Source of the DNA: a virus
Strand: one strand, 5' to 3'
IMG/VR virus record: IMGVR_UViG_3300045967_000162
Span: 1-25,481 of that record
DNA: 25,481 nucleotides
The translations under genes were made by a program, and so were the position numbers. Position 1 is the stretch's first letter. Every line of letters starts with the position of its first letter. Below the pieces are notes generated by a model. That model worked only from the letters and a program-made list of their open reading frames with translations, made no database searches and was not told the DNA's origin. Shown piece by piece: positions 5,484 through 25,481 of the stretch.

Positions 5484-5693
5484 TTAGACCCCGCTTCCCA
5501 GAGAAGCAAGAAACCGAATCACTCCAATGACGACGACCGCGGCGATAACGATCCAAAACAGCGTTACGACCCATCGCGGAATCGCGACCCCCATCGCGCC
5601 GGCCCCAACGTAGACCGCCGCTACGACCGCAATCAGAATCACAAGCCAGATTGCCCAGCCCGCAATCGTCCGAGGCAGCTCAACGCCAGTCAT
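5484..5693 (-). CDS. Two-helix membrane protein, candidate holin
   Basis: The protein has 69 residues from the ATG at 5693, which overlaps the stop of the protease gene (ATGA) and has GGGGG upstream. A longer frame begins at 5789 but would lie inside the protease gene. Two transmembrane helices are clear, at about 8-28 (GWAIWLVILIAVVAAVYVGA) and 40-61 (VVTLFWIVIAAVVVIGVIRF), joined by a short Gly/Pro loop. Size, two-span topology and position next to a secreted-type protease fit a class II holin, which opens the inner membrane at lysis. This is inference from topology and context, because holins share little sequence. Confidence 0.6.
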   Translation of the reverse strand: MTGVELPRTIAGWAIWLVILIAVVAAVYVGAGAMGVAIPRWVVTLFWIVIAAVVVIGVIRFLASLGSGV

Positions 5694-6532
5694 ACAAGCC
5701 CCCGATCCGCCGTAGGCCAATCTCGAACCACGACCGGCGCCGAGTCGTCCGCAGGGTCCTCCCGCGGCGAGCGCACGACATACGCACAAAAGTTACTCTG
5801 CGCCAGGATATGCGCTTCAGATACCCAGAAGTACCCATCAAGCCCCCACGCCACTCCCCATGAATTCTGGCACTTAATGAGCCACCGTCCACCCGAGCGC
5901 TTCGCCCCCAAGCCGCCCGTCACCGCATGATTGCCTGGACCCGGACAGATGCCGCAACAACCGTCGCTATCGAGATGATCGAAACCCGGCCCCACGCACA
6001 CACTAAAATTGAGAAACCCGCCCACCTGGACGGCCGACATCAACTCTCCCCAGGAAACCGCGGCGAAGCCAATCTCAATCCGAAACCGCGGCGCCGCGGC
6101 ATGCGACTCGGCTGACAGCGCTCGAGGATCAATTGTCCCGTGCCGTACGAGCTCGTCCGGCGGCGCGCCTTGCTCTCGCATGAGCTCGAGCGCTTGCGGA
6201 ATGGACGCCCCGCGATCGATCCCGCCACAGAGAATCGAGTAGACGTACCAAGCCGAGAGCACCCGCGCCGGTTGTCCGGCCAACCAGCGCTCGAGCTCTA
6301 GCGAGCTTGTCGCCGCATGCCCCACGCAGGCGCCGTAAGAGCCTTGGTTCTTGACCGGCGCCGCTGTCTCGCTTGGCAACTCGAACTCCAACCAGCGCTC
6401 GCTTGGCACGACGAAAGGCGCCGGAGCCCCCAGCAGATTGACCGGCGCCACAATCGTCCCTAGCCGGCGAACCTGCCCCGACTGGTCAATGAAGCGCTCG
6501 AGTAGTGGCATGACCGATTGCCCCCACGACAT
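5690..6532 (-). CDS. Papain-like (C1-type) cysteine protease
   Basis: The protein has 280 residues. The papain signature is complete and in order: oxyanion Gln63 and nucleophile Cys69 in VKNQGSYGACVGHA, His202 in GPGNHAVTGG, and Asn223 in KCQNSWGVAWG. There is no signal peptide and no propeptide of normal length, only about 55 residues before the catalytic domain. The ATG at 6532 has GGAG upstream. A second ATG at 6511, with GGGGG upstream, would remove seven residues. It sits between a secreted Pro-rich protein and a candidate holin. Because no muralytic enzyme is recognisable, it is a candidate lysis enzyme that cuts peptide cross-links or envelope proteins. A virion protease is the alternative. 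The catalytic assignment is strong and the biological role is inferred. Confidence 0.85.
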   Translation of the reverse strand: MSWGQSVMPLLERFIDQSGQVRRLGTIVAPVNLLGAPAPFVVPSERWLEFELPSETAAPVKNQGSYGACVGHAATSSLELERWLAGQPARVLSAWYVYSILCGGIDRGASIPQALELMREQGAPPDELVRHGTIDPRALSAESHAAAPRFRIEIGFAAVSWGELMSAVQVGGFLNFSVCVGPGFDHLDSDGCCGICPGPGNHAVTGGLGAKRSGGRWLIKCQNSWGVAWGLDGYFWVSEAHILAQSNFCAYVVRSPREDPADDSAPVVVRDWPTADRGLV

Positions 6533-10573: not shown

Positions 10574-10786
10574 ATGAGCCCAGCCGAGCTTGAACGCGCC
10601 TTCGAAGCCGCCCCCGTTCGCGACGTTGCCACAGCCCGCCGCCTTGGTATCGTATCGCATCACGCGCACGCTTTGGCGCGCACGATAGCCTTCATCCTGC
10701 CCGAATCGAATCCCGCCCGCGGCCAGGCGCTCGATGCGCTCTATGTCGCTTTCACGACCACGACACAGGCCCTCTACCGACGATGA
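10574..10786 (+). CDS. Small protein resembling Acb2-type cyclic oligonucleotide sponge (tentative)
   Basis: The protein has 70 residues from an ATG with a good GGAGG 10 bases upstream. The last 45 residues form two helices around a Pro-Glu-Ser turn: HAHALARTIAFILPES, then ARGQALDALYVAFTTTTQAL, then Arg-Arg at the very end. Acb2 and its relatives (T4 Vs.4 and short phage homologues) share this plan: a helix of small hydrophobics, P-x-S, an A-L-x-x-L helix and a terminal A-I-A-R-like end. They bind cGAMP-type signals to block CBASS. Resemblance is by eye only. The gene is transcribed divergently from the zinc protein and starts the accessory block that also carries an HNH gene. A small regulator is the alternative. 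Confidence 0.4.
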   Translation: MSPAELERAFEAAPVRDVATARRLGIVSHHAHALARTIAFILPESNPARGQALDALYVAFTTTTQALYRR

Positions 10787-10805
10787 GCATAAGGGGGAAG
10801 TCGCG

Positions 10806-11531
10806 ATGAACGAGCTGCTGCTAGAAGTCAAGCCGGATACGGTACCGATCTGGACATCACAATGTTATTACCGTGGCTTGTGGCGTCCAATCTCGTTTGC
10901 CATGCATCCTGATATTTATATAATGCGATTGGAAACGACAGATTGCCCAAAAGGCAAGGCTATCAAGCACTGTAATAGTGCCAACCCATGGGATTTGTGG
11001 CTGGAGTTTTCTGATATGATCCATCGACAATTGTATGAGTGCTACTATTTTGGCCTTACGATCAAACTGCCTGAATCGGCTCCAGATGAGATTCCTGAGT
11101 GCGTTTTGCCCCATCGTTTGCGCAATAGTGGGCGCAATGATCCCGATACGCCGCCCGCGGCGGTGTCACCAAAACCCCCCGACAAACCTCGACCCGGCCC
11201 GCCGATCCAGCTCGCCCTTGACTTCAAGGACGGCTCATTCTTTGCCGGCTATGGCAATGAATTCTCACGCCCGAATTTCTGGAAGCAGCGTCCCAAGAAG
11301 AGCGATGCCCATCAGCAATGGCTGTGGAAAGGAGTCATGAAACGTTGCGGTGGTGTTTGCGAGGCATGCGGCGAGAATCCGGCCAAGCTCCTGCACCATG
11401 TGACCTATGAGCGCTACGGCCACGAACTGCTTACGGATGTTCTCGGTGTTTGCCGCGAATGTCACGGCAAATTCCATCCCCAGAAGATCAAGCGGCCCGA
11501 CCACGGCTGCTACATGCAACGAGATTATTGA
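10806..11531 (+). CDS. HNH endonuclease with an uncharacterised, AT-richer N-terminal domain
   Basis: The protein has 241 residues; the ATG at 10806 has GGGGGAAG upstream. The HNH site is at 176-224: WKGVMKRCGG, Cys185-x2-Cys188, His197-His198-Val-Thr, Asp211, and Cys216-Arg-Glu-Cys219-His220. The two CxxC pairs make the structural zinc of the beta-beta-alpha fold, and His197 or His198 is the general base. Residues 1-100 are a Trp/Tyr/Cys-rich domain I do not recognise, joined by a Pro-rich linker (115-135). Bases 10846-11120 are visibly richer in AT than the rest of the genome, so that part was probably acquired separately. It could be a homing-type nuclease, a packaging-associated HNH or an exclusion nuclease. 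Its distance from terL argues against packaging. Confidence 0.75.
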   Translation: MNELLLEVKPDTVPIWTSQCYYRGLWRPISFAMHPDIYIMRLETTDCPKGKAIKHCNSANPWDLWLEFSDMIHRQLYECYYFGLTIKLPESAPDEIPECVLPHRLRNSGRNDPDTPPAAVSPKPPDKPRPGPPIQLALDFKDGSFFAGYGNEFSRPNFWKQRPKKSDAHQQWLWKGVMKRCGGVCEACGENPAKLLHHVTYERYGHELLTDVLGVCRECHGKFHPQKIKRPDHGCYMQRDY

Positions 11532-12568: not shown

Positions 12569-12951
12569 CCGGCCCCCCTAAGGTAGCGGCCCGCTCGCCC
12601 CATGCGAGCGCATCCAAAAAGCCGATATACTTGCCCCTGTCTCCACGTGCAAGCACATGATGCCCAAAGACATCCAATCCCCAGCCCGCGAATATGCCTT
12701 CATGATAACCCTACCACGACCAGCCCTCGAATATGCCTTCATGACAACCCTATCACGACCACATACAATCACAACAAGACCGTGGTTTTATACGTCAGAT
12801 GCCCCGCCCCTACCAATAGTGTATTTGACCGAAGAGGCGCGCCGGCGGTTTCTCACGCCCCATATCCCGCCGGCGCCAGCTTCGGCCGAACCTACCGTGG
12901 GTCCTTCCGGCGACCCCTAGACGCCCGACTGCCCGGGAACAAGGCGAAAAC
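12569..12951. promoter_or_regulatory. AT-richer divergent control region
   Basis: This 383-base stretch separates the minus-strand maintenance operon from the plus-strand packaging operon. It holds the 39-bp tandem repeat (12681-12761) and AT-rich promoter-like runs such as GGTTTTATACG near 12784-12794. I could not place a -35/-10 pair with good spacing. A GC-rich open frame from a GTG at 12819 to 12920 would encode 33 residues but lacks a Shine-Dalgarno sequence. A longer reading of the same frame from 12657 translates the repeat and does not look like protein. Confidence 0.5.
12681..12761. repeat. Two copies of a 39-bp tandem repeat
   Basis: Copy 1 starts CCAGCCCGCGAATATGCC at 12681 and copy 2 starts CCAGCCCTCGAATATGCC at 12720. 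Each continues TTCATGAYAACCCTAYCACG and then ACCA, with three differences in all. The copies lie between divergent operons, as an operator, iteron or partition site would. Confidence 0.8.
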
Positions 12952-14175
12952 TTGGATCGAGTCAATCAACCGCCAGCGCTCGAGGACCTGGACCCGCTTT
13001 TCTTGGAGCTCGCCGGCCTAACGCCGATTGGGCTTGCCGACCAAGAAACACTTACGCCCCGCACCGCTCGAACCCGCGCCCGGCACCGCTTCGCCCGTAT
13101 CCGCCAGCACGAGCAGATACGCACAGCCGTTCCCCAGCTCCCGCCCGCCGGCACGTCGATTCATGCCATATCGCAGACGCACTACGACTTCTGGCGCTGG
13201 GTCCCCCACCTATGCGAGCTCTTGGCCAAGCCGGCGACGTTGTGGGCTTCGACCTGGACGATGAACCGCCAGAACGTCGACGAGCTCGCTCAACTCCTGG
13301 ACGCCGGCACCCTGCGCGCGGCCCATGTTTTATGCGGCGTCTACTTCAAGCGCCGCAACACCGACGTTTACGGCGCCTTGGTCGAGCAGATACGCCGCCA
13401 CCGCCGCGGCGGCAGCCGCCTTGTGTGCTTCCACAATCATGCGAAGGTATTGCTCGTCGACGATGGCCGGCGTTACTTCACAATCGAGGGATCGGCCAAC
13501 CTATGCGAGAACTCGAACCTGGAGCAATCGACCTTGACCCACTCCCGGGCGCTTCACGCCTTCCACGTCTCTTGGATGAATGAAGCCTACGACCGCGCCG
13601 GCCGCGGCGCCGCCGGCCGCCTGGCCGAGCTCGCCGGCGGCGACGAGACCCCCGCGCCCGGCCACCCGCAGCGGCGCATCGGGCGCGGCGCCTGGAGCGC
13701 CACGCTTCGCGTCTTCGACCGCCGCCGCATTGCCCAATGGAAATCCGACTACCCCAGAGACCCCGCCGAGCTCGACCACTTCGCCGGCGCCATCGCCCTA
13801 GTAATCCGCGCCCGCCTTCCCAACATCCCGCCCGCCGCGGTTGTCACCTTCCCGCCGGCCGGCGCATCGGCCGCGCTCGAGCTCGATCAGGAGGAGCCCC
13901 CCGCCCACTACGCCGCCCTTGAGCTCGCCCGCGCCGTCGCCCGCCTTGTCGAACTCCCTTGCGTCGACTTGCTGCGCCGCACCGACACGAAAGACTGGCA
14001 ACACGGACCACAGGCGGCCATCAGGCAACGCCCGTTTAGCTTGAAAGCAGCGCCGCCGCCGGTTGTCATACTGGTCGACGACGTATTGACCACCGGCACA
14101 ACGCTTCGACTCGCCCGAGCGGCGCTCGAGCAAGCCGGCGCCACCGTCTACGCCTTCACGTACTTCGGCCGATGA
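12952..14175 (+). CDS. Fusion of a phospholipase D-like (HKD) nuclease domain and a ComF-like phosphoribosyltransferase
   Basis: The protein has 407 residues from a TTG at 12952 (AAGGCG five bases upstream; no ATG or GTG is available). Residues 70-215 form a PLD-like domain with one complete HKD motif: His163-x-Lys165, Asp170/171, then Gly180-Ser181-x-Asn183 and Glu191 (HAKVLLVDD, EGSANLCENSNLEQ). One motif per chain suggests a dimer, as in Nuc-type nucleases. Residues 245-407 are a type I phosphoribosyltransferase of ComF kind: LLRR then Q and R at 350-360, and the PRPP loop ILVDDVLTTGTT at 373-384, followed by the A-G-A-T-V-Y strand. The gene leads the packaging operon and overlaps the TerS start (ATGA). 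HKD-domain proteins near terminases are known to me from other phages; the fusion to a phosphoribosyltransferase is not. DNA-end processing or DNA modification is a guess. Confidence 0.75.
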   Translation: MDRVNQPPALEDLDPLFLELAGLTPIGLADQETLTPRTARTRARHRFARIRQHEQIRTAVPQLPPAGTSIHAISQTHYDFWRWVPHLCELLAKPATLWASTWTMNRQNVDELAQLLDAGTLRAAHVLCGVYFKRRNTDVYGALVEQIRRHRRGGSRLVCFHNHAKVLLVDDGRRYFTIEGSANLCENSNLEQSTLTHSRALHAFHVSWMNEAYDRAGRGAAGRLAELAGGDETPAPGHPQRRIGRGAWSATLRVFDRRRIAQWKSDYPRDPAELDHFAGAIALVIRARLPNIPPAAVVTFPPAGASAALELDQEEPPAHYAALELARAVARLVELPCVDLLRRTDTKDWQHGPQAAIRQRPFSLKAAPPPVVILVDDVLTTGTTLRLARAALEQAGATVYAFTYFGR

Positions 14176-14795
14176 AACACCCGACCACCCCGCCGCTTGA
14201 CCCCGAGTACATCAACCGCGCTATCCTCTTGCTCTGTAACGGCGCCACCGAGGGAGAAGCCGTCGCCGTACTCTCCAAGGCGTTGGGACTGGACCGCGCC
14301 GCCGCCGCGGCATTGCTCGCCGAAGCCCGCGCCAAGATCAGTACCGCCGGCCACTTCGACCCCAAAGCCGAAGCCGGCCGCGCCTACGTCCGGTTGAACG
14401 ACCTCTACCGGCGTAGCGTCTCCATTCATGACGCCAAGACTGCCCTAAGCGCACAACGCGAGCTCAATAAACTCATCGCGCTCTACCTGCCCGCTCGCAA
14501 TGACCCGCCAGCGGCGCCCGTCGACATCACGGCCGGCGCCGTCACTCTCTACTTGCACCCGCTCGGACTCGCCCCGGCGACCGCTTCGCCAGTCGAGCAC
14601 ATCCGGCTTGCCGCCCAGCGCATCATTGACGCCCCGCCCCCGCCCCCGCGCCCGCCCCCGCCACCCAGGAGCACGACCAATGCCGCCCAAGCAGATACCA
14701 GCCGCGCCACCCATGACGCTCGAAGAACTCGCCGAACTCGGACGCGCGATGCGAACCGCCCAACGAGCGTATTTCCGCCGCCGCACCGCGGCTGA
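14172..14795 (+). CDS. Terminase small subunit-like protein
   Basis: The protein has 207 residues; the ATG at 14172 overlaps the upstream stop. Residues 10-60 are a helix-turn-helix-like region (AVAVLSKALGLDRAAAAALL) of the type used to bind packaging sites. Residues 70-110 carry GRAYVRLNDLYRRS and ALSAQRELNKLIALYLP, a coiled oligomerisation segment I recall from small terminase or terminase-associated proteins of this phage group. The last 50 residues are a Pro run and a basic tail that overlap the next gene by 116 bases. Small terminases select viral DNA and regulate the large subunit. Assignment is by domain plan and by its position two genes upstream of TerL. Confidence 0.7.
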   Translation: MKHPTTPPLDPEYINRAILLLCNGATEGEAVAVLSKALGLDRAAAAALLAEARAKISTAGHFDPKAEAGRAYVRLNDLYRRSVSIHDAKTALSAQRELNKLIALYLPARNDPPAAPVDITAGAVTLYLHPLGLAPATASPVEHIRLAAQRIIDAPPPPPRPPPPPRSTTNAAQADTSRATHDARRTRRTRTRDANRPTSVFPPPHRG

Positions 14796-14889
14796 GCTCG
14801 ACGAAGCCCGCTCGCTCGAGCGCCAATTTGACCGCGCTTGCACGGCGATCCTCGAACCCCACCCCATGCCGCTTTTCCGAAGCACATAG
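14680..14889 (+). CDS. Small helical phage protein between terminase genes
   Basis: The protein has 69 residues. The ATG at 14680 lies inside the 3' end of the TerS gene but has a strong AGGAG 8 bases upstream, which makes it a real start. The sequence MRTAQRAYFRRRTAAELDEA then LERQFDRACTAIL is a helical hairpin with a Q-x-x-Y-F-x-x-R motif, known to me from many short phage hypothetical proteins next to terminases. The function is unknown. It ends 5 bases before the TerL start. Confidence 0.65.
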   Translation: MPPKQIPAAPPMTLEELAELGRAMRTAQRAYFRRRTAAELDEARSLERQFDRACTAILEPHPMPLFRST

Positions 14890-14894
14890 GGAAA

Positions 14895-17012
14895 ATGAGG
14901 ACCGCCAAGCCGCGCAAGTACCTCAGTCAGAAGGAAGCAAGCCGGCGCATTCACGCGGCCGACCGATCGGCCGCGCGCGACATCGCCCCCATCCCGCCCG
15001 TCAAGGACCCGATCCGCCGCGGCGAGGCGCGGCATTCGTTCCGCCGTTTTTGCGAGCTCTACCAAGCGACGGTTTACTACCTGCCCTGGAGCCCCGACCA
15101 CCTGCGCATGATCGAGCGCATTGAGGGTGCCGTACTCCGCGGCGAGCTCTGCGCCTTCGCGATGCCCCGCGGCAGCGGAAAGACTTCTCTAAGCGAAAGC
15201 GCCGTTATGTGGGCGACGCTCGCCGGCCATTGCGCCTACTCGCTCTTGATCGGCGCCGATCAGAGCGCCGCCGAGCGCAACCTAGCGTCAATCCATGCGA
15301 CCTTACTTTCCAACCCCGAGCTCGCCGGCGACTTCCCCGAAGTGATCTACCCCATACAGCGCCTAGAGGGAGTGCACCAACGACGTTTGCTCTATGAGGG
15401 AGCCCCCATCACCTATCGGCTCACCCGCACCAAGATGATCCTCCCGGACATCCGCGGCAGCGCCGCCGCCGGCACGGCGATTGAGACGATCGGATTATCC
15501 GGGCACATCCGCGGGCGCAAGCACACGATGCCCGATGGCCGCGCCATCCGGCCCGGACTCGTGCTATGCGACGACCCCCAGACCGACGAATCGGCCCGCA
15601 GCCCCACCCAATGCGAGCACCGCGCATCCATACTCGCCGGCGCCGTACTAGGGCTTGCCGGACCTGGCCAGAGCATTAGCGGCATCATGCCTTGCACCGT
15701 TATTCAACCCGGCGACCTGGCCGACCGCATTCTGGACCGCACCCGCCACCCCGAATGGCACGGCGAGCGCACGAAACTCGTCTACAGCTTTCCCACGTCG
15801 ACCAAGTGGGAAACCTACGCCGAGCTCCGCGCCGACAGTCTTCGCGCCGGCGGCAGCGGCGCCGAAGCGACCGCCTACTATCGGAAACACCGCGCCGATA
15901 TGGACCAAGGCGCCGCGGTCGCTTGGCCCGAGCGGCACAATCTCGACGAGCTTTCGGCCATTCAGCACGCCATGAATTTACGTCTCCGCGATGAGCTCGC
16001 CTTCTTCGCCGAGTACCAGAACGAACCCAAGATTGACGCGGCTTACGCCGCCGAGCTTACGCCCGAGCAGATCATGAGCCGCACGAGCGGCCGACCCCGC
16101 TTGACGGCGCCGCTCGAAAGTACCTTGCTCACCGGCTTCATTGATTGTCAGCAGGCGGCGCTCTACTACTGTCTCGTTTCCTGGACGCCCGACTTCACCG
16201 GCGCCGTTGTCGACTATGGCACGTACCCCGACCAGCTTACGCCCTACTTCACGCTCGATAGCCTGCGCCGCACGCTCGCCAAAGCCTTCCCCGCCGCCGG
16301 CATCGAGGGAGCGCTCTACGCTGGGCTCGACGCCCTGACGCAAGCGCTCATGACCCGGCCTATTCTGCGCGACGACGGAGCCGAGATGCGACCCGACCGC
16401 CTCTTGATTGACGCCAATTGGGCGATATCAACGCCGCTTGTCTACGCCCTGGCCCGCGCCAGCCCGCACGCGAACGCGCTCATGCCGAGCCACGGCCGAT
16501 ACATCGGCGCCAGCTCGCGGCCGATGCATGAATGGACCCGCAAGCCCGGCGACCGCCGCGGACTCAATTGGACCGTACCCGCCGTCGACCCCCGCCGCGC
16601 CGTCCGGCACGTCACCTTCGACACGAATTTTTGGAAGAGCTTCGCTCATGCCAGGCTTGCCGCGGCGATCGGCGACCGCGGCGCCTTGACGCTCTTCGGC
16701 AACGACCCCGCCGCCCATCGACTCTTCGCCGAGCACCTAGGCGCCGAGTACCGGGTTCCCACGACCGGCCGCGGCCGCGCCGTCGACGAATGGAAGGCCC
16801 GGCCCGACCGCCCGGACAATCACTGGCTCGATTGTCTCGCCGGTTGTGCCGTCGCCGCGGCGATGCACGGCGCCGCCCTACCCGGCCAGATTACTCCGCA
16901 GCCCCGCCGGCCGCGGCCGACCTCGAGCGCCGCCCCCGCGCCCGCCGCCGGCCCCTACCCGGCACGCCGCCCGCCGGCCAACCCGATCGGCCGATACTCG
17001 CCGCAACGCTAA
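14895..17012 (+). CDS. terL: Terminase large subunit
   Basis: The protein has 705 residues; the ATG at 14895 has GGGA just upstream, and a longer frame from 14838 only overlaps the preceding gene. The ATPase domain shows Walker A at 90-99 (MPRGSGKTSL) and Walker B at 222-227 (LVLCDD). The C-terminal RNase H-like nuclease domain has Asp417 in GFIDCQQA and Asp646 in DNHWLDCLAG as likely metal ligands. The last 50 residues are Pro/Arg-rich. It cuts concatemeric DNA and drives it through the portal into the prohead. At 705 residues it is long for HK97 types and nearer to gpA-type large subunits. The stop falls inside a 54-bp tandem repeat. Confidence 0.93.
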   Translation: MRTAKPRKYLSQKEASRRIHAADRSAARDIAPIPPVKDPIRRGEARHSFRRFCELYQATVYYLPWSPDHLRMIERIEGAVLRGELCAFAMPRGSGKTSLSESAVMWATLAGHCAYSLLIGADQSAAERNLASIHATLLSNPELAGDFPEVIYPIQRLEGVHQRRLLYEGAPITYRLTRTKMILPDIRGSAAAGTAIETIGLSGHIRGRKHTMPDGRAIRPGLVLCDDPQTDESARSPTQCEHRASILAGAVLGLAGPGQSISGIMPCTVIQPGDLADRILDRTRHPEWHGERTKLVYSFPTSTKWETYAELRADSLRAGGSGAEATAYYRKHRADMDQGAAVAWPERHNLDELSAIQHAMNLRLRDELAFFAEYQNEPKIDAAYAAELTPEQIMSRTSGRPRLTAPLESTLLTGFIDCQQAALYYCLVSWTPDFTGAVVDYGTYPDQLTPYFTLDSLRRTLAKAFPAAGIEGALYAGLDALTQALMTRPILRDDGAEMRPDRLLIDANWAISTPLVYALARASPHANALMPSHGRYIGASSRPMHEWTRKPGDRRGLNWTVPAVDPRRAVRHVTFDTNFWKSFAHARLAAAIGDRGALTLFGNDPAAHRLFAEHLGAEYRVPTTGRGRAVDEWKARPDRPDNHWLDCLAGCAVAAAMHGAALPGQITPQPRRPRPTSSAAPAPAAGPYPARRPPANPIGRYSPQR

Positions 17013-17409: not shown

Positions 17410-17616
17410 ATGAATGAACCGACCGAACCGACGCCCGCCGAGCTCGCCCTGCTCGCCGCTCTCACGAGCCCGCAATCCGTCACTATCGACGGCAATAACA
17501 CCCAGACGCGGCCGATCGGCGACCTGATCGCCGCCGACAAGTATCTGCGCTCCCGCGCCGTCCGTTGCGGCATTGGCATTCGCACCTATAAGGTACTCGC
17601 CCCCGGCGTCCAATGA
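17410..17616 (+). CDS. gpW-like head-tail joining protein (tentative)
   Basis: The protein has 68 residues from an ATG with AGGAG 8 bases upstream. The pattern is a short N-terminal acidic arm, a helix (AELALLAALT), a beta-hairpin SVTIDGNNTQTRPIGDL and a helix AADKYLRSRAV. That is the helix-hairpin-helix plan of lambda gpW, which also lies between the large terminase and portal genes. gpW plugs the portal and accepts the neck. The similarity is in size, fold pattern and position. It is coupled to the portal gene by ATGA. Confidence 0.6.
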   Translation: MNEPTEPTPAELALLAALTSPQSVTIDGNNTQTRPIGDLIAADKYLRSRAVRCGIGIRTYKVLAPGVQ

Positions 17617-19232
17617 CTGACGCCCATATCCAGCTCATCGACTGGAGCGCCGAGCCCCGCCGGCCGGCCCCACCGCCCCCGCCGGCCCGCCGGCCGACGA
17701 GCCCCACCGCCGACCAGCGGCGCCGGCTTGCCGCCCGCTACGACGCCGCGGCCACGACCGCAGAGAACGCCCGGCATTGGGCCAACGCCGATCCGCTCTC
17801 GCCCAACGCGGCCAACTCGCCCGAGGTGCGGCGCACCCTGCGCAACCGCGCCCGCTACGAGACCGCCAACAACTCCTATGCCCGCGGCATTGTCCTGACG
17901 CTCGCCAACGCTGCGATCTCCACTGGCCCCAACCTCCAAGTTAAAACCCCCAATGAACCGCTCAATGACCAGATCGAATCCAGCTTCAATGAATGGTCCG
18001 AGCTCATCAACCTGGACGAGAAGCTACGCGTTATGCGGCAGGCGCGCGCCGTCGACGGCGAGACCTTCGGCTTACTCTTCACGAACCCCCGCATCGAGCA
18101 TGACGTTCAGCTTGACCTGCGCTTGATCGAGTGCGATCAGATCGCCGACCCCTACGGCGCCGCCCTCACGCCGCCCGACGGCCCGCGCCACGTCGACGGA
18201 ATCGACTTCGACACCTTCGGCAATCCGCTTACCTACTCGCTCTTGCATGAACACCCCGGCTCCACCAATGCGAGCAGCTATAACACCGGCGCCACGGCGA
18301 TTCCCGCGCGTTTCATGCTCCATTGGTATCGCCAAGACCGGCCCGGCCAGGCCCGCGGCGTCTCCGAGCTCACGCCGGCGTTGCCGCTTTTCGCCCTGCT
18401 ACGGCGATACACGCTCGCGACCGTCGCCGCCGCCGAGCTCGCCGCCGACTATGCCGCGGTCTTGGAAACCGACCAACCCCCGTCCGAGGACCAACCCTAC
18501 GGCCTACCGCCCGATGGCGAAGCCAAGTACGGCTATGGCACGACGACGCCCGGCTTGCCGATCGAGCCCCGGACAATGGCTTTCCTGCCCGAAGGCTGGA
18601 AGCTAAGCCAATTCAAAGCCGAGCAGCCGACGACCGCCCACCCCGCCTTCGTCGAGCAGACCTTGAATGAAATCGCCCGCTGTTTAGAGATGCCCTACGC
18701 CGTCGCCGCCGGCAATAGCTCAGGATACAACTACAGCTCCGGCCGACTCGACTTCCAAGTCTTCGGCCGCGCCATCGCGATCCTACGGCGCGAGCTCCAA
18801 TGCGCCGTCTTGCGGCGTATCTTCGAGTCTTGGCTCGACGAAGCCGCCACGATCGGACTGTTCCGCGGTCTGCCCGCCCGGTTTACGCCGATCCAATGGC
18901 ATTGGCCCAGCGTCCCGCACGTCGACCCCCAGAAGGAAGCCCAGGCCCAACAAATACGCCTTCTCAATCTGACAACGACTTGGGCCGATGAATGTGCCGC
19001 CGATGGTAGGGACTGGCAAACCGTCTTCGACCAACGCGCCCGCGAGGTAAAACGCATGACCCAACTTGGTATCACTTCCGCCGCCTTGCCCGAAGAGCGG
19101 CCCGAGTCAGCACCGCCCCCAGAGGAGCCCAACGTCCCGGATGACGCGAACGAAGAGCCCGACGCCGACCAGGAGGTGCCCGGCGAAGAGCCCGACGAGG
19201 AGATACCCGCCGATGCCAACGACGACGATTGA
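17613..19232 (+). CDS. Portal protein, lambda gpB family
   Basis: The protein has 539 residues. Conserved lambda-type portal features are visible: RARYETANNSYARGIVLTLAN near 80, a QARAVDGETFGLLF strand at about 145, LRLIECDQIADP near 170, the FMLHWYRQDRPGQARGVSEL segment near 232, and ARCLEMPYAVAAGNSSGYNYS at about 355. The C-terminal 50 residues are very acidic and Pro-rich. Twelve copies form the DNA channel at the capsid vertex and dock the terminase. It starts inside the stop of the gpW-like gene and overlaps the capsid gene by 20 bases. Confidence 0.92.
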   Translation: MTDAHIQLIDWSAEPRRPAPPPPPARRPTSPTADQRRRLAARYDAAATTAENARHWANADPLSPNAANSPEVRRTLRNRARYETANNSYARGIVLTLANAAISTGPNLQVKTPNEPLNDQIESSFNEWSELINLDEKLRVMRQARAVDGETFGLLFTNPRIEHDVQLDLRLIECDQIADPYGAALTPPDGPRHVDGIDFDTFGNPLTYSLLHEHPGSTNASSYNTGATAIPARFMLHWYRQDRPGQARGVSELTPALPLFALLRRYTLATVAAAELAADYAAVLETDQPPSEDQPYGLPPDGEAKYGYGTTTPGLPIEPRTMAFLPEGWKLSQFKAEQPTTAHPAFVEQTLNEIARCLEMPYAVAAGNSSGYNYSSGRLDFQVFGRAIAILRRELQCAVLRRIFESWLDEAATIGLFRGLPARFTPIQWHWPSVPHVDPQKEAQAQQIRLLNLTTTWADECAADGRDWQTVFDQRAREVKRMTQLGITSAALPEERPESAPPPEEPNVPDDANEEPDADQEVPGEEPDEEIPADANDDD

Positions 19233-21204
19233 CCCGCAAGCCCCGCCCCGCTCCGTCGAGCTCGTCGCCGCGGCGACGTTTGCCCCGCTTGAAGCCGCGG
19301 CGACCGAGGGAGCCCCCGCCCCGCTGCCCCGCTTCGAAATGGTTGCGTACACCGGCGCGCCTATGCGGCTCAAAGGCTGGCGCCACCCAACGATCGTCGA
19401 CCTGGACGGCGTTACGATCCCGACCCAGAACCGCCCGATACGCTTCGAGCACGACGCCCGCGCCGGCGTCGGCCACACCGATACTCTCACGATCCGCGAG
19501 GGACACCTTCACGCCACCGGCGTCATTTCCCGCGATACGCCCGAAGCCCGCGAAGTTGTTACCGCCGCCCGCAATGGCTTTCACTGGCAAGCCAGTATCG
19601 GCGCCGACGTTAGCGACTTCGAGCTTGTCCGCGCCGGCCACACCGTCGCCGTCAATGGTCGCGACTGGAAAGGCCCGATTTACGTAGTCCGCCGCGCCAC
19701 GATCGGCGAAATATCATTCGTCGACATCGGCGCCGACGGCGCCACGACGGCGAGCATTGCGGCCCGCGCCGATACAGAGCATGAGCCCGACCAGGCCGAC
19801 CTCCCCGCGCCGGCCGACGAGCCGAAGACATCGGGCGCCGTACTCGCCCAGCGCCGCGCGCTCGAGCACCGCGCCGAGCTCCGCGCCCGGTTGACCCGCG
19901 ATGCGCTCGCGATCCGCGGCGCTCGAGCCGACGATATCCAGGCACTCGCCGAGGAAGCCGACGCGCACGATTGGACCCCCGATCAGTACGAGCTCCGACT
20001 GCGCCGCACCGAACGCCCCAGCCCGCCGCCGATGCAGGGACGGACGGCCCGGCCCACGGCCCGTGTTCTGGAATGCGCCTTCTGCGAGACCGCCGGACTC
20101 ACCCCGGCCCAACTCGAGCGCCACTTCGACCCGCTTACGATCGAAGCCGCCGGCACCCCCGAATTCAAAGGGACCGGCATCACCGAGCTCGTCTACGCCA
20201 CGATCGGCGCCGCCGGCCGATATGCCCGCCCCGGCCGCATCAACAACGACATCATCCGGCTTGCCCTCGACGCAAACAACGCGATCCAAGCCAGCGGCAT
20301 CGGCTTCTCGACAATCTCGCTCACCGGCATTCTCACGCCAGCCTTGAATAAGATCATGCTGGCCAGTTACACCGCCGAGCCCATGACCGCCTTGCTCATC
20401 ACGAGCTCATCCAACGCCCAAGACTTCCGCCCGAGCTCGCTCTACCGGCTCACCGGGTCCGGCCCCTTTCTTAAGGTGCCGCAAGATGGCGAGCTTAAAC
20501 ACTTGCAGCTCGTCGAGGAATCCTATTCGCAACAAGTCGAAACCTATGGCCGCATTGTCGCGCTCACTCGGCAAATGCTCGTCAATGACGACCTGGACGC
20601 CTTGACCCAGATTCCCCGCATCATGGGGCGCTCGAGCGCCCTGACGATTCAAAACGCCGTTTACGAGCTCTTGCTCTCGAACCCCGGCACGCCGGCGCTC
20701 TTTAGCGTCGCCCACAACAACTTGCTCACCGGCACGACGAGCGCTCTCTCCATCGAGTCATTGGGCTTGGCGGAAACGCTTTTCTTGAAACAGGTAGACG
20801 CCGCCGGCCAACCGATCATGTTGACGCCCCGCTACTTGCTCGTCCCACCCGAGCTCAAAGCCAAAGCCGAGCAGCTCATGAAGTCGCTCGACTTGAACGA
20901 AACGACAACCGCCGGCAAGCCCGCGCCCGCCGGCAACCCCTTCGCTGGCCGTTACGAGGTAATCGTCTCGCCCTGGCTCTCGAACAGCGCCATCACCGGC
21001 TCGAGCGCCACCGCATGGTATCTCCTGGCCGACCCCATTTTGGGAGGTGTCTTGAACATCGCCTACCTGCGCGGGAACCGCTCGCCCCTAATCGAGACCG
21101 GCGCAACCGACTTTGACACCTTGGGCATTCGCTGGAGAGGCTATTTTGACTTCGGCGTCGGAGTACTCGACTACCGCGCCGGCGTCAAGGCAGCCGGCGT
21201 CTAG
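19213..21204 (+). CDS. Prohead protease fused to the major capsid protein
   Basis: The protein has 663 residues. I chose the ATG at 19213, inside the portal 3' end, rather than longer frames from 19066. Residues 40-180 are a prohead-protease-like domain with likely His80 in RPIRFEHD and Ser128 in FHWQASIGA. A charged helical linker (185-280) resembles a scaffold or delta domain. Residues 280-663 are the capsid protein: GTPEFKGTGITELVYATIG, a TRQMLVNDDLDAL segment and MLTPRYLLVPPELKAKAEQL, similar to Mu gpT-type major head proteins. The linker would be removed by the protease on maturation, leaving a shell protein of about 380 residues. Such fusions occur in other phages. Domain calls are strong and the cleavage site is unknown. 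Confidence 0.88.
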   Translation: MPTTTIDPQAPPRSVELVAAATFAPLEAAATEGAPAPLPRFEMVAYTGAPMRLKGWRHPTIVDLDGVTIPTQNRPIRFEHDARAGVGHTDTLTIREGHLHATGVISRDTPEAREVVTAARNGFHWQASIGADVSDFELVRAGHTVAVNGRDWKGPIYVVRRATIGEISFVDIGADGATTASIAARADTEHEPDQADLPAPADEPKTSGAVLAQRRALEHRAELRARLTRDALAIRGARADDIQALAEEADAHDWTPDQYELRLRRTERPSPPPMQGRTARPTARVLECAFCETAGLTPAQLERHFDPLTIEAAGTPEFKGTGITELVYATIGAAGRYARPGRINNDIIRLALDANNAIQASGIGFSTISLTGILTPALNKIMLASYTAEPMTALLITSSSNAQDFRPSSLYRLTGSGPFLKVPQDGELKHLQLVEESYSQQVETYGRIVALTRQMLVNDDLDALTQIPRIMGRSSALTIQNAVYELLLSNPGTPALFSVAHNNLLTGTTSALSIESLGLAETLFLKQVDAAGQPIMLTPRYLLVPPELKAKAEQLMKSLDLNETTTAGKPAPAGNPFAGRYEVIVSPWLSNSAITGSSATAWYLLADPILGGVLNIAYLRGNRSPLIETGATDFDTLGIRWRGYFDFGVGVLDYRAGVKAAGV

Positions 21205-25106: not shown

Positions 25107-25481
25107 ATGCGCACCTTCCAGGATGCCGCCGGCCGCACTTGGGCGCTCTCTGTTAGCGTCACGAGCTTACGCACCGTCCGCGATCGCCTTGGACTCGACT
25201 TGAACCGAGTCATTAGCTTCGAGCCGACGAATGAGAAAAACCCTTTCCCGTACGTTCAGACATTCTTCGCCGACTCCATCGCCGTCGCCGACGTGCTTTG
25301 GGTCCTCATCGAGCCCCAAGCCGCCACCGTACATAAGATCGGCCAGGAAGCCTGCGAGGGAGGACTGACCGGCGACGCTTTGGACGCCGCCGGCAAAGCG
25401 CTCTATCAGGCGCTCGCCGATTACTGTCCCGAAGCGCCGCGGCGGCACGCGCTAAAAAAAATGGCCGAACTGGTCGCGCGG
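25107..25481 (+). CDS. Tail assembly chaperone (gpG-like), N-terminal part, cut by the window end
   Basis: The ATG at 25107 lies 8 bases after the tail-tube stop, and the frame is open to the window end. Joined across the 127-bp repeat it continues to the stop at 275-277, giving 174 residues. The protein is mixed helical, has no membrane segment or signal peptide, and ends in a Pro/Ser-rich tail. Position is the main evidence: in lambda-like and HK97-like siphoviruses the gene between the tail tube and the tape measure is the chaperone that coats the tape measure during tail assembly. A second, overlapping T-like frame follows in -1 register, as in lambda G/GT. The assignment rests on synteny and the T-like extension rather than on a motif in this part. 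Confidence 0.75.
   Translation, partial: MRTFQDAAGRTWALSVSVTSLRTVRDRLGLDLNRVISFEPTNEKNPFPYVQTFFADSIAVADVLWVLIEPQAATVHKIGQEACEGGLTGDALDAAGKALYQALADYCPEAPRRHALKKMAELVAR
25355..25481. repeat. 127-bp terminal direct repeat, right copy
   Basis: This is the exact copy of bases 1-127. The reading frame that starts at 25107 runs off the window here and continues without interruption at base 128 once the ends are joined. That continuity is the best internal evidence that the ends are artificial. Confidence 0.95.

Follow-up and report, generated by a model that had tools for sequence, protein, structure and literature searches.

This locus raises the question of whether a phospholipase D (PLD)-like nuclease and a ComF-like phosphoribosyltransferase (PRTase) are really joined in one phage protein, and what such a protein could do at the head of a packaging operon. 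The window, that is the whole stretch of 25,481 nt that was analyzed, carries on its plus strand an open reading frame (12952-14175) of 407 codons, which is uninterrupted from a TTG start with AAGG upstream. The GC content at codon positions 1/2/3 was 0.70/0.51/0.81 for the whole frame, 0.62/0.47/0.82 for the PLD part and 0.74/0.52/0.80 for the PRTase part. Because these values resemble those of the large terminase gene (TerL; 0.67/0.55/0.81), both halves of the fusion look coding. The two domains are separated by a linker (residues 221-250; 13612-13701, plus strand), which is of low complexity, shows a third-position GC of 1.0 and was modeled with low confidence. At its 3′ end, the gene shares an ATGA stop/start overlap with the next gene (14172-14175, plus strand), as the first-pass annotation had reported. 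The PLD-PRTase fusion in one polypeptide is genuine. An exact 127-base direct repeat was found at the two ends of the record (1-127 and 25355-25481), 127 being a common assembly k-mer length. It is probable from this that the record represents a complete genome, either circular or circularly permuted, of about 25,354 bp. A chimeric assembly of the fusion was considered, but the frame is intact, codon-position GC agrees, the two genes are joined by ATGA and the terminal repeat is present, all of which argue against it. Two tandem 39-nt repeats, arranged head-to-tail and 92% identical, were found some 190 bp ahead of the fusion gene (12681-12758, plus strand); they could be a TerS/cos-proximal or an operator site.

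The source is a small temperate phage. The fusion gene is followed on the plus strand by a putative small terminase (TerS, 207 aa; 14172-14795), a gpA-type TerL (14838-17012; Pfam GpA_nuclease 1.2e-14, PHROG terminase 2.7e-27), a lambda-family portal protein (17613-19232; Pfam 2e-55), a 712-aa fused prohead protease and major capsid protein recognized by Pfam and PHROG (19066-21204, overlapping the portal gene), and head-tail genes. TerL of this phage showed 54-58% identity to many viral contigs. The gene after the fusion had been named small terminase in the first-pass annotation. This name is supported by its position and by homology to genes that lie between PLD and TerL elsewhere: it is related to the gene that immediately follows PLD in L085, L087/L088, L090 and L104, and more weakly in L091, L093 and L094/L095. 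Neither PHROG nor Pfam gave a direct family match. The genes to the left of the fusion gene encode a tape-measure protein, a papain-like protease, an integrase and a weak HNH candidate; as the genome is probably circular or circularly permuted, the tail genes would run past the right end of the record into its left end. The HNH candidate is a 265-aa frame (10734-11531, plus strand) whose C-terminal third weakly matches HNH endonucleases (PHROG 1.2e-5). Its GC content is below that of its neighbors, and it may be an HNH gene that was acquired recently and lies ahead of the packaging genes. The papain-family cysteine protease (5690-6532, minus strand; Pfam PF00112, 2.4e-6) is located near the integrase, and a lysis function or an inserted host gene was considered for it.

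The fold and active site of the N-terminal half were then examined. Homology, AlphaFold and Foldseek assigned residues 40-220 (13069-13611, plus strand) to a PLD-superfamily nuclease domain related to phrog_20533/phrog_16945. PHROG 20533 was matched at 9e-10, and homologues were found with E-values down to 3e-39, those from phages sharing at most 41% identity. Pfam PLDc_2 (PF13091) gave 13.1 bits for the fusion and 24.4 bits for the relative L149, the gathering score being 27 bits, and the PDB held no sequence-level match to this half. The AlphaFold model reached a pLDDT above 90 over most of the domain (about residues 50-220), in agreement with the PLD-like nuclease proposed earlier. When this model was searched with Foldseek, the restriction enzymes SauUSI and BfiI and phosphatidylserine synthases were matched, as was a viral protein named NucT-like nuclease.

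The active-site stretch, H163-x-K165 ... E179-G-S181-x-N183 ... E191, is encoded at 13438-13524 (plus strand). H163, K165, E179, S181, N183 and E191 were unvarying in 44/44 diverse homologues, so that loss of catalytic residues, looked for as evidence against the site, was seen in none of them. An intact HKD site including Asp170/171 had been claimed. H163, K165, D170, D171, S181, N183 and E191 are all present in the fusion protein, and the five residues other than the aspartates proved invariant, but neither aspartate is conserved: K, E, A and Q predominate in the column of Asp170, and the Asp171 column varies too. E179, on the other hand, is invariant and had not been listed. The canonical signature is quoted as HxK(x)4D(x)6GSxN (PMC5714352); here D170 is not conserved and the spacing to GS is 9, not 6. 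The missing conserved Asp excludes the canonical signature, not membership of the PLD superfamily. In BfiI, the catalytic residues are H105, K107, N125 and E136, and the Asp of the canonical signature is not among them (PMC4081073). Because HxK...N...E is invariant and the Asp is not conserved, the predicted PLD active site resembles that of BfiI rather than canonical HKD. The single HxK per chain implies a homodimer, judging from the BfiI/NucT family.

The C-terminal half carries a ComF-like PRTase domain at residues 271-402 (13762-14157, plus strand; Pfam and ComF profiles), of which residues 322-398 are best supported. Its PRPP loop, VILVDDVLTTGTT (residues 372-384; 14065-14103, plus strand), is intact as previously described and fits the ComF pattern DDxxTTGxT. 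Pfam Pribosyltran matched this half at 1.3e-5, just under the cut-off. A first ComF profile gave 75.6 bits over residues 271-402 and was partly circular, so a second one was assembled from sequences chosen independently of the fusion protein. The independent profile scored 43.7 bits versus at most 6.8 bits for 200 shuffles, which bears out the ComF-like second domain of the first-pass annotation, and with the PRPP loop masked the remainder scored 12.2 bits. In whole genomes, the best PRTase matches were ComF proteins of Planctomycetota and Verrucomicrobiota. TIGR00201 gave 19.3 bits against a cut-off of 233.55, which was missed as well by all 59 Planctomycetota genomes searched. The profile evidence thus indicates that residues 271-402 are a ComF-like PRTase domain related to ComF, probably acquired from a host. 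PyrR or APRT identity was rejected because their matches were weaker than that to ComF, and the PADLOC identity ShosT/PsyrT was rejected because the ShosT match (1.7e-6) covers the PRPP motif only.

Several ComF features are altered in this half. The four-cysteine N-terminal zinc finger is absent, with the PLD domain and the linker in its place. The RG(F/Y)N-type PPi-loop arginine is also absent, the fusion having EEPPAHYAAL there, and several Planctomycetota ComFs are likewise without it. The early part of the PRTase domain and the PPi-loop region have diverged; both the PRPP loop and the flexible loop with its Q have been retained. An Arg shared by polyvalent and ComFC-like PRTases after the second strand was not seen at the aligned position, where the alignment is weak. 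AlphaFold, run with a six-row alignment, gave a pLDDT of 44 for this half, a value too low for the model to be used, and Foldseek returned orotate PRTase only at a non-significant E-value. The earlier view that a single polypeptide with two domains opens the packaging operon is upheld.

Further fusions were searched for. No second fusion was among the matches listed when the whole protein was scanned against viral and genome collections and compared by tblastn with phages and plasmids. A scan with the TerS protein gave no near relative of the phage. Scans with the PRTase half alone gave, among the matches listed, distant viral PRTases only, none beside a PLD gene. The best 80 TerL relatives had no PLD, and in 392 Planctomycetota and 388 Verrucomicrobiota genomes PLD and ComF matches occurred on separate proteins only. 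None of the other PLD proteins of the family survey (91 distinct) had a PRTase domain, and separate but adjacent PLD and ComF-like genes, suggested earlier as something to look for, were seen in no locus examined. Among the sequences searched, the PLD-ComF fusion is therefore found only in this phage. The literature search found no described PLD-PRTase fusion either, as had been stated, nor any biochemical or genetic study of the PLD family, and the work on phage PRTases (PMC5512222) contains neither "phospholipase" nor "PLD".

In contrast to the fusion, the PLD half has many relatives, and we were particularly interested in their gene neighborhoods. The survey comprised 91 distinct PLD proteins/loci among the matches listed, from scans seeded by short conserved patterns. 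These homologues are stand-alone proteins, mostly of 200-240 aa. TerL was recognized in 76 of the 91 loci, and in all 76 it lay downstream on the same strand (0 on the opposite strand), usually at a distance of 0.2-1.7 kb; among the loci with at least 3.5 kb downstream, 60/67 had TerL within 3 kb. The TerLs beside PLD fall into at least four types, in clusters without detected mutual similarity at the BLAST cut-off used: gpA-type (two clusters), Terminase_3-type, the L085 type and a 570-aa Bacteroidota-phage type. Many of the 91 phages are related and the locus counts are not independent; the spread over TerL types is a stronger argument than the counts. Moreover, a TerS homologue directly follows PLD in several phages, and in L185, a contig of a Verrucomicrobia MAG, the PLD gene lies between a TerS-like gene (phrog_57, 7e-8) and a TerL-like gene. 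Judging from these neighborhoods, the PLD half belongs to an uncharacterized family of phage proteins encoded within the packaging module. The PLD gene was absent from 45/45 loci of the closest TerL relatives with at least 3.7 kb upstream (among the best 80), and it is therefore an accessory that moves between packaging modules. Gene position by itself does not prove a packaging role of PLD.

Two neighbors in these loci were recorded separately. The 570-aa protein downstream of PLD in L149 (1982-3691) and 40 similar loci of Bacteroidota-type phages had no Pfam or PHROG match, and is probably an unlisted TerL family, as assigned from motifs alone. A ParB-N plus N6/N4 DNA methyltransferase-type protein was encoded directly upstream of PLD in L187, L192, L212, L213, L100, L139 and L182, and in these seven relatives a modification/nuclease pair in the packaging module is possible.

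The explanation that we favor, at about even chances, is a dimeric PLD nuclease of the packaging module that acts with the terminase, with the ComF-like half as an accessory binder. The PLD half would form a homodimer with one shared active site, as in BfiI and NucT, and this dimer would cut DNA via a covalent phosphohistidine in a metal-independent manner. Together with TerS and TerL, the predicted nuclease would act on phage DNA during packaging, possibly by cutting or trimming cos or termini or by clearing ssDNA or branched structures, in a role analogous to that of the HNH proteins of HK97-type cos phages. The ComF-like half may bind nucleotide, PRPP or ssDNA and thus guide or regulate the nuclease. 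Such binding or sensing is more likely than catalysis of base transfer, because ComFC binds ssDNA without shown PRTase activity and nucleotide sensing has been proposed for phage PRTases. The earlier proposal that both activities act jointly on one DNA end or base is unsupported, as are DNA modification and nucleotide salvage: among the sequences searched the PRTase half was seen in this phage only, RGFN is lost and ComFC is without shown PRTase activity. Against the favored explanation counts the weak HNH candidate at 10734-11531 in the same genome, an HNH protein being the more usual packaging partner. The seven ParB-methyltransferase neighbors, which would also fit a restriction-like role, the single fusion with its low-confidence PRTase model and the absence of the PLD gene from the 45 loci of the closest TerL relatives count against it as well.

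The methyltransferase neighbors would fit a different task, in which the PLD nuclease destroys unmodified host or rival-phage DNA, a methylase or packaging partners protect the phage's own DNA, the PRTase half senses nucleotides and the operon is shared for timing only. The closest solved folds do include the restriction enzymes SauUSI and BfiI, the ParB-N6/N4-methyltransferase gene does lie directly upstream of PLD in 7 relatives, and PRTases occur in phage conflict proteins (PMC5512222), to which the weak PADLOC ShosT match (1.7e-6, motif only) may be added. However, no methyltransferase was recognized among the larger ORFs of the 25,481-nt window, and most PLD loci are missing one while TerL linkage is nearly constant, and we regard this task as unlikely. 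It is quite improbable that the protein is instead packaged into the virion head to act when DNA enters the next host, in the manner of the PRTase polyvalent proteins. Its gene is within the head/packaging module, and phage PRTase domains have been described chiefly in polyvalent proteins, in particular together with MuF head proteins and from Proteobacteria and Verrucomicrobiae (PMC5512222), but the fusion protein showed neither MuF nor another domain for virion association, the PLD relatives have no second domain, and the PRTase half resembles bacterial ComF more closely than it does the viral PRTases that were found.

The fusion could also be neutral or degenerate, with a host comF fragment captured in frame behind an ordinary phage PLD gene and contributing nothing. 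That it is a single case, that the N-terminal PRTase part and the ComF Arg motif have diverged and that the linker GC3 is 1.0 would be expected under this explanation, to which we nevertheless give little credence: retention of the PRPP loop and of the flexible loop with its Q, together with an ordinary codon-position GC in the PRTase half, argues for purifying selection. Least credible, and very doubtful, is breakdown of host DNA by PLD coupled to recycling of the bases with PRPP by the PRTase half. Two points favor it: the PRPP loop is intact, and purine salvage is a process in which the PLD nuclease NucT is implicated (PMC5714352). On the other hand, the protein has no ComF RGFN motif and is diverged in the PPi-loop region, PRTase activity was not shown for ComFC (PMC9005727), all PLD relatives are without a PRTase, and the position in the packaging module suggests late expression.

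Of the earlier interpretation as a whole, the two domains, the conserved PLD site and the ComF-like second domain are retained, and catalysis by Asp170/171 and the joint chemistry are not supported. In many unrelated phages the predicted PLD nuclease is a separate gene in the same place, whereas here it is fused to a piece of ComF, a protein of bacterial DNA uptake. The tie of the PLD family to the packaging module is a more general and testable result than the single fusion, as a nuclease family with an invariant active site is almost always found just upstream of TerL in phages of several bacterial phyla. If true, a PLD role in packaging would mean that HNH proteins are not the only accessory packaging nucleases and that a second type exists, with metal-independent covalent chemistry; such a role could be tested in cultured Flavobacterium phages. 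The ComF-like fusion links the PLD family to the competence protein ComF. A wider idea, which we hold with considerable doubt, is that a NucT-like nuclease and a ComF-like domain form a functional pair for DNA ends in packaging, in which the ComF-like half grips ssDNA or senses nucleotides and the PLD family is a metal-independent class of accessory packaging nucleases beside HNH.

Among known systems, the nearest are proteins of phrog_20533/phrog_16945, from Flavobacterium phages 6H and laban6-1 and, annotated as "endonuclease", from Bacteroides phage BT-TP2, which have the same PLD domain and the invariant residues. In contrast to the fusion, they are stand-alone proteins of about 198-235 aa without a PRTase. 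In 6H and laban6-1 the PLD gene lies shortly before a terminase-like gene, as in the fusion phage, whereas in BT-TP2 it follows the portal gene, with the terminase about 6 kb upstream. The HNH protein gp74 of HK97 is likewise a phage nuclease in the packaging module beside the terminase and stimulates cos cleavage by TerL (PMC9410871); the analogy is of position only, as fold and chemistry are unrelated and the fusion has no HNH motif. With the phage polyvalent PRTases, proposed to make or sense nucleotide at DNA entry, the fusion has in common a PRTase in a multidomain protein of a portal-terminase phage (PMC5512222). The fusions described there are with MuF and other domains, whereas the PRTase here is ComF-like and not of the mobile-element PRTase group.

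The PLD half has the single HxK, the conserved N and E and the PLD fold in common with BfiI, Nuc and NucT (PMC4081073; PMC5714352), although there is no sequence-level PDB match and the nuclease activity of the fusion is predicted. BfiI also combines its nuclease with a second, DNA-binding domain, which is B3-like and unrelated to the ComF-like domain (PMC4081073). Residues 271-402 have the PRPP loop and the flexible-loop pattern in common with ComF/ComFC, but differ from them in having no zinc finger and no RGFN, in being joined to a nuclease and in scoring far under the TIGR00201 cut-off. ComFC of H. pylori binds ssDNA and PRPP, its ssDNA binding survives mutation of the PRPP loop, and PRTase activity was not shown (PMC9005727). 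NucT is implicated in transformation as well as in purine salvage (PMC5714352), and a shared ssDNA substrate of the two halves is therefore attractive, though unproven. NucT-like and ComF-like proteins are each implicated in DNA handling in H. pylori natural transformation (PMC5714352; PMC9005727).
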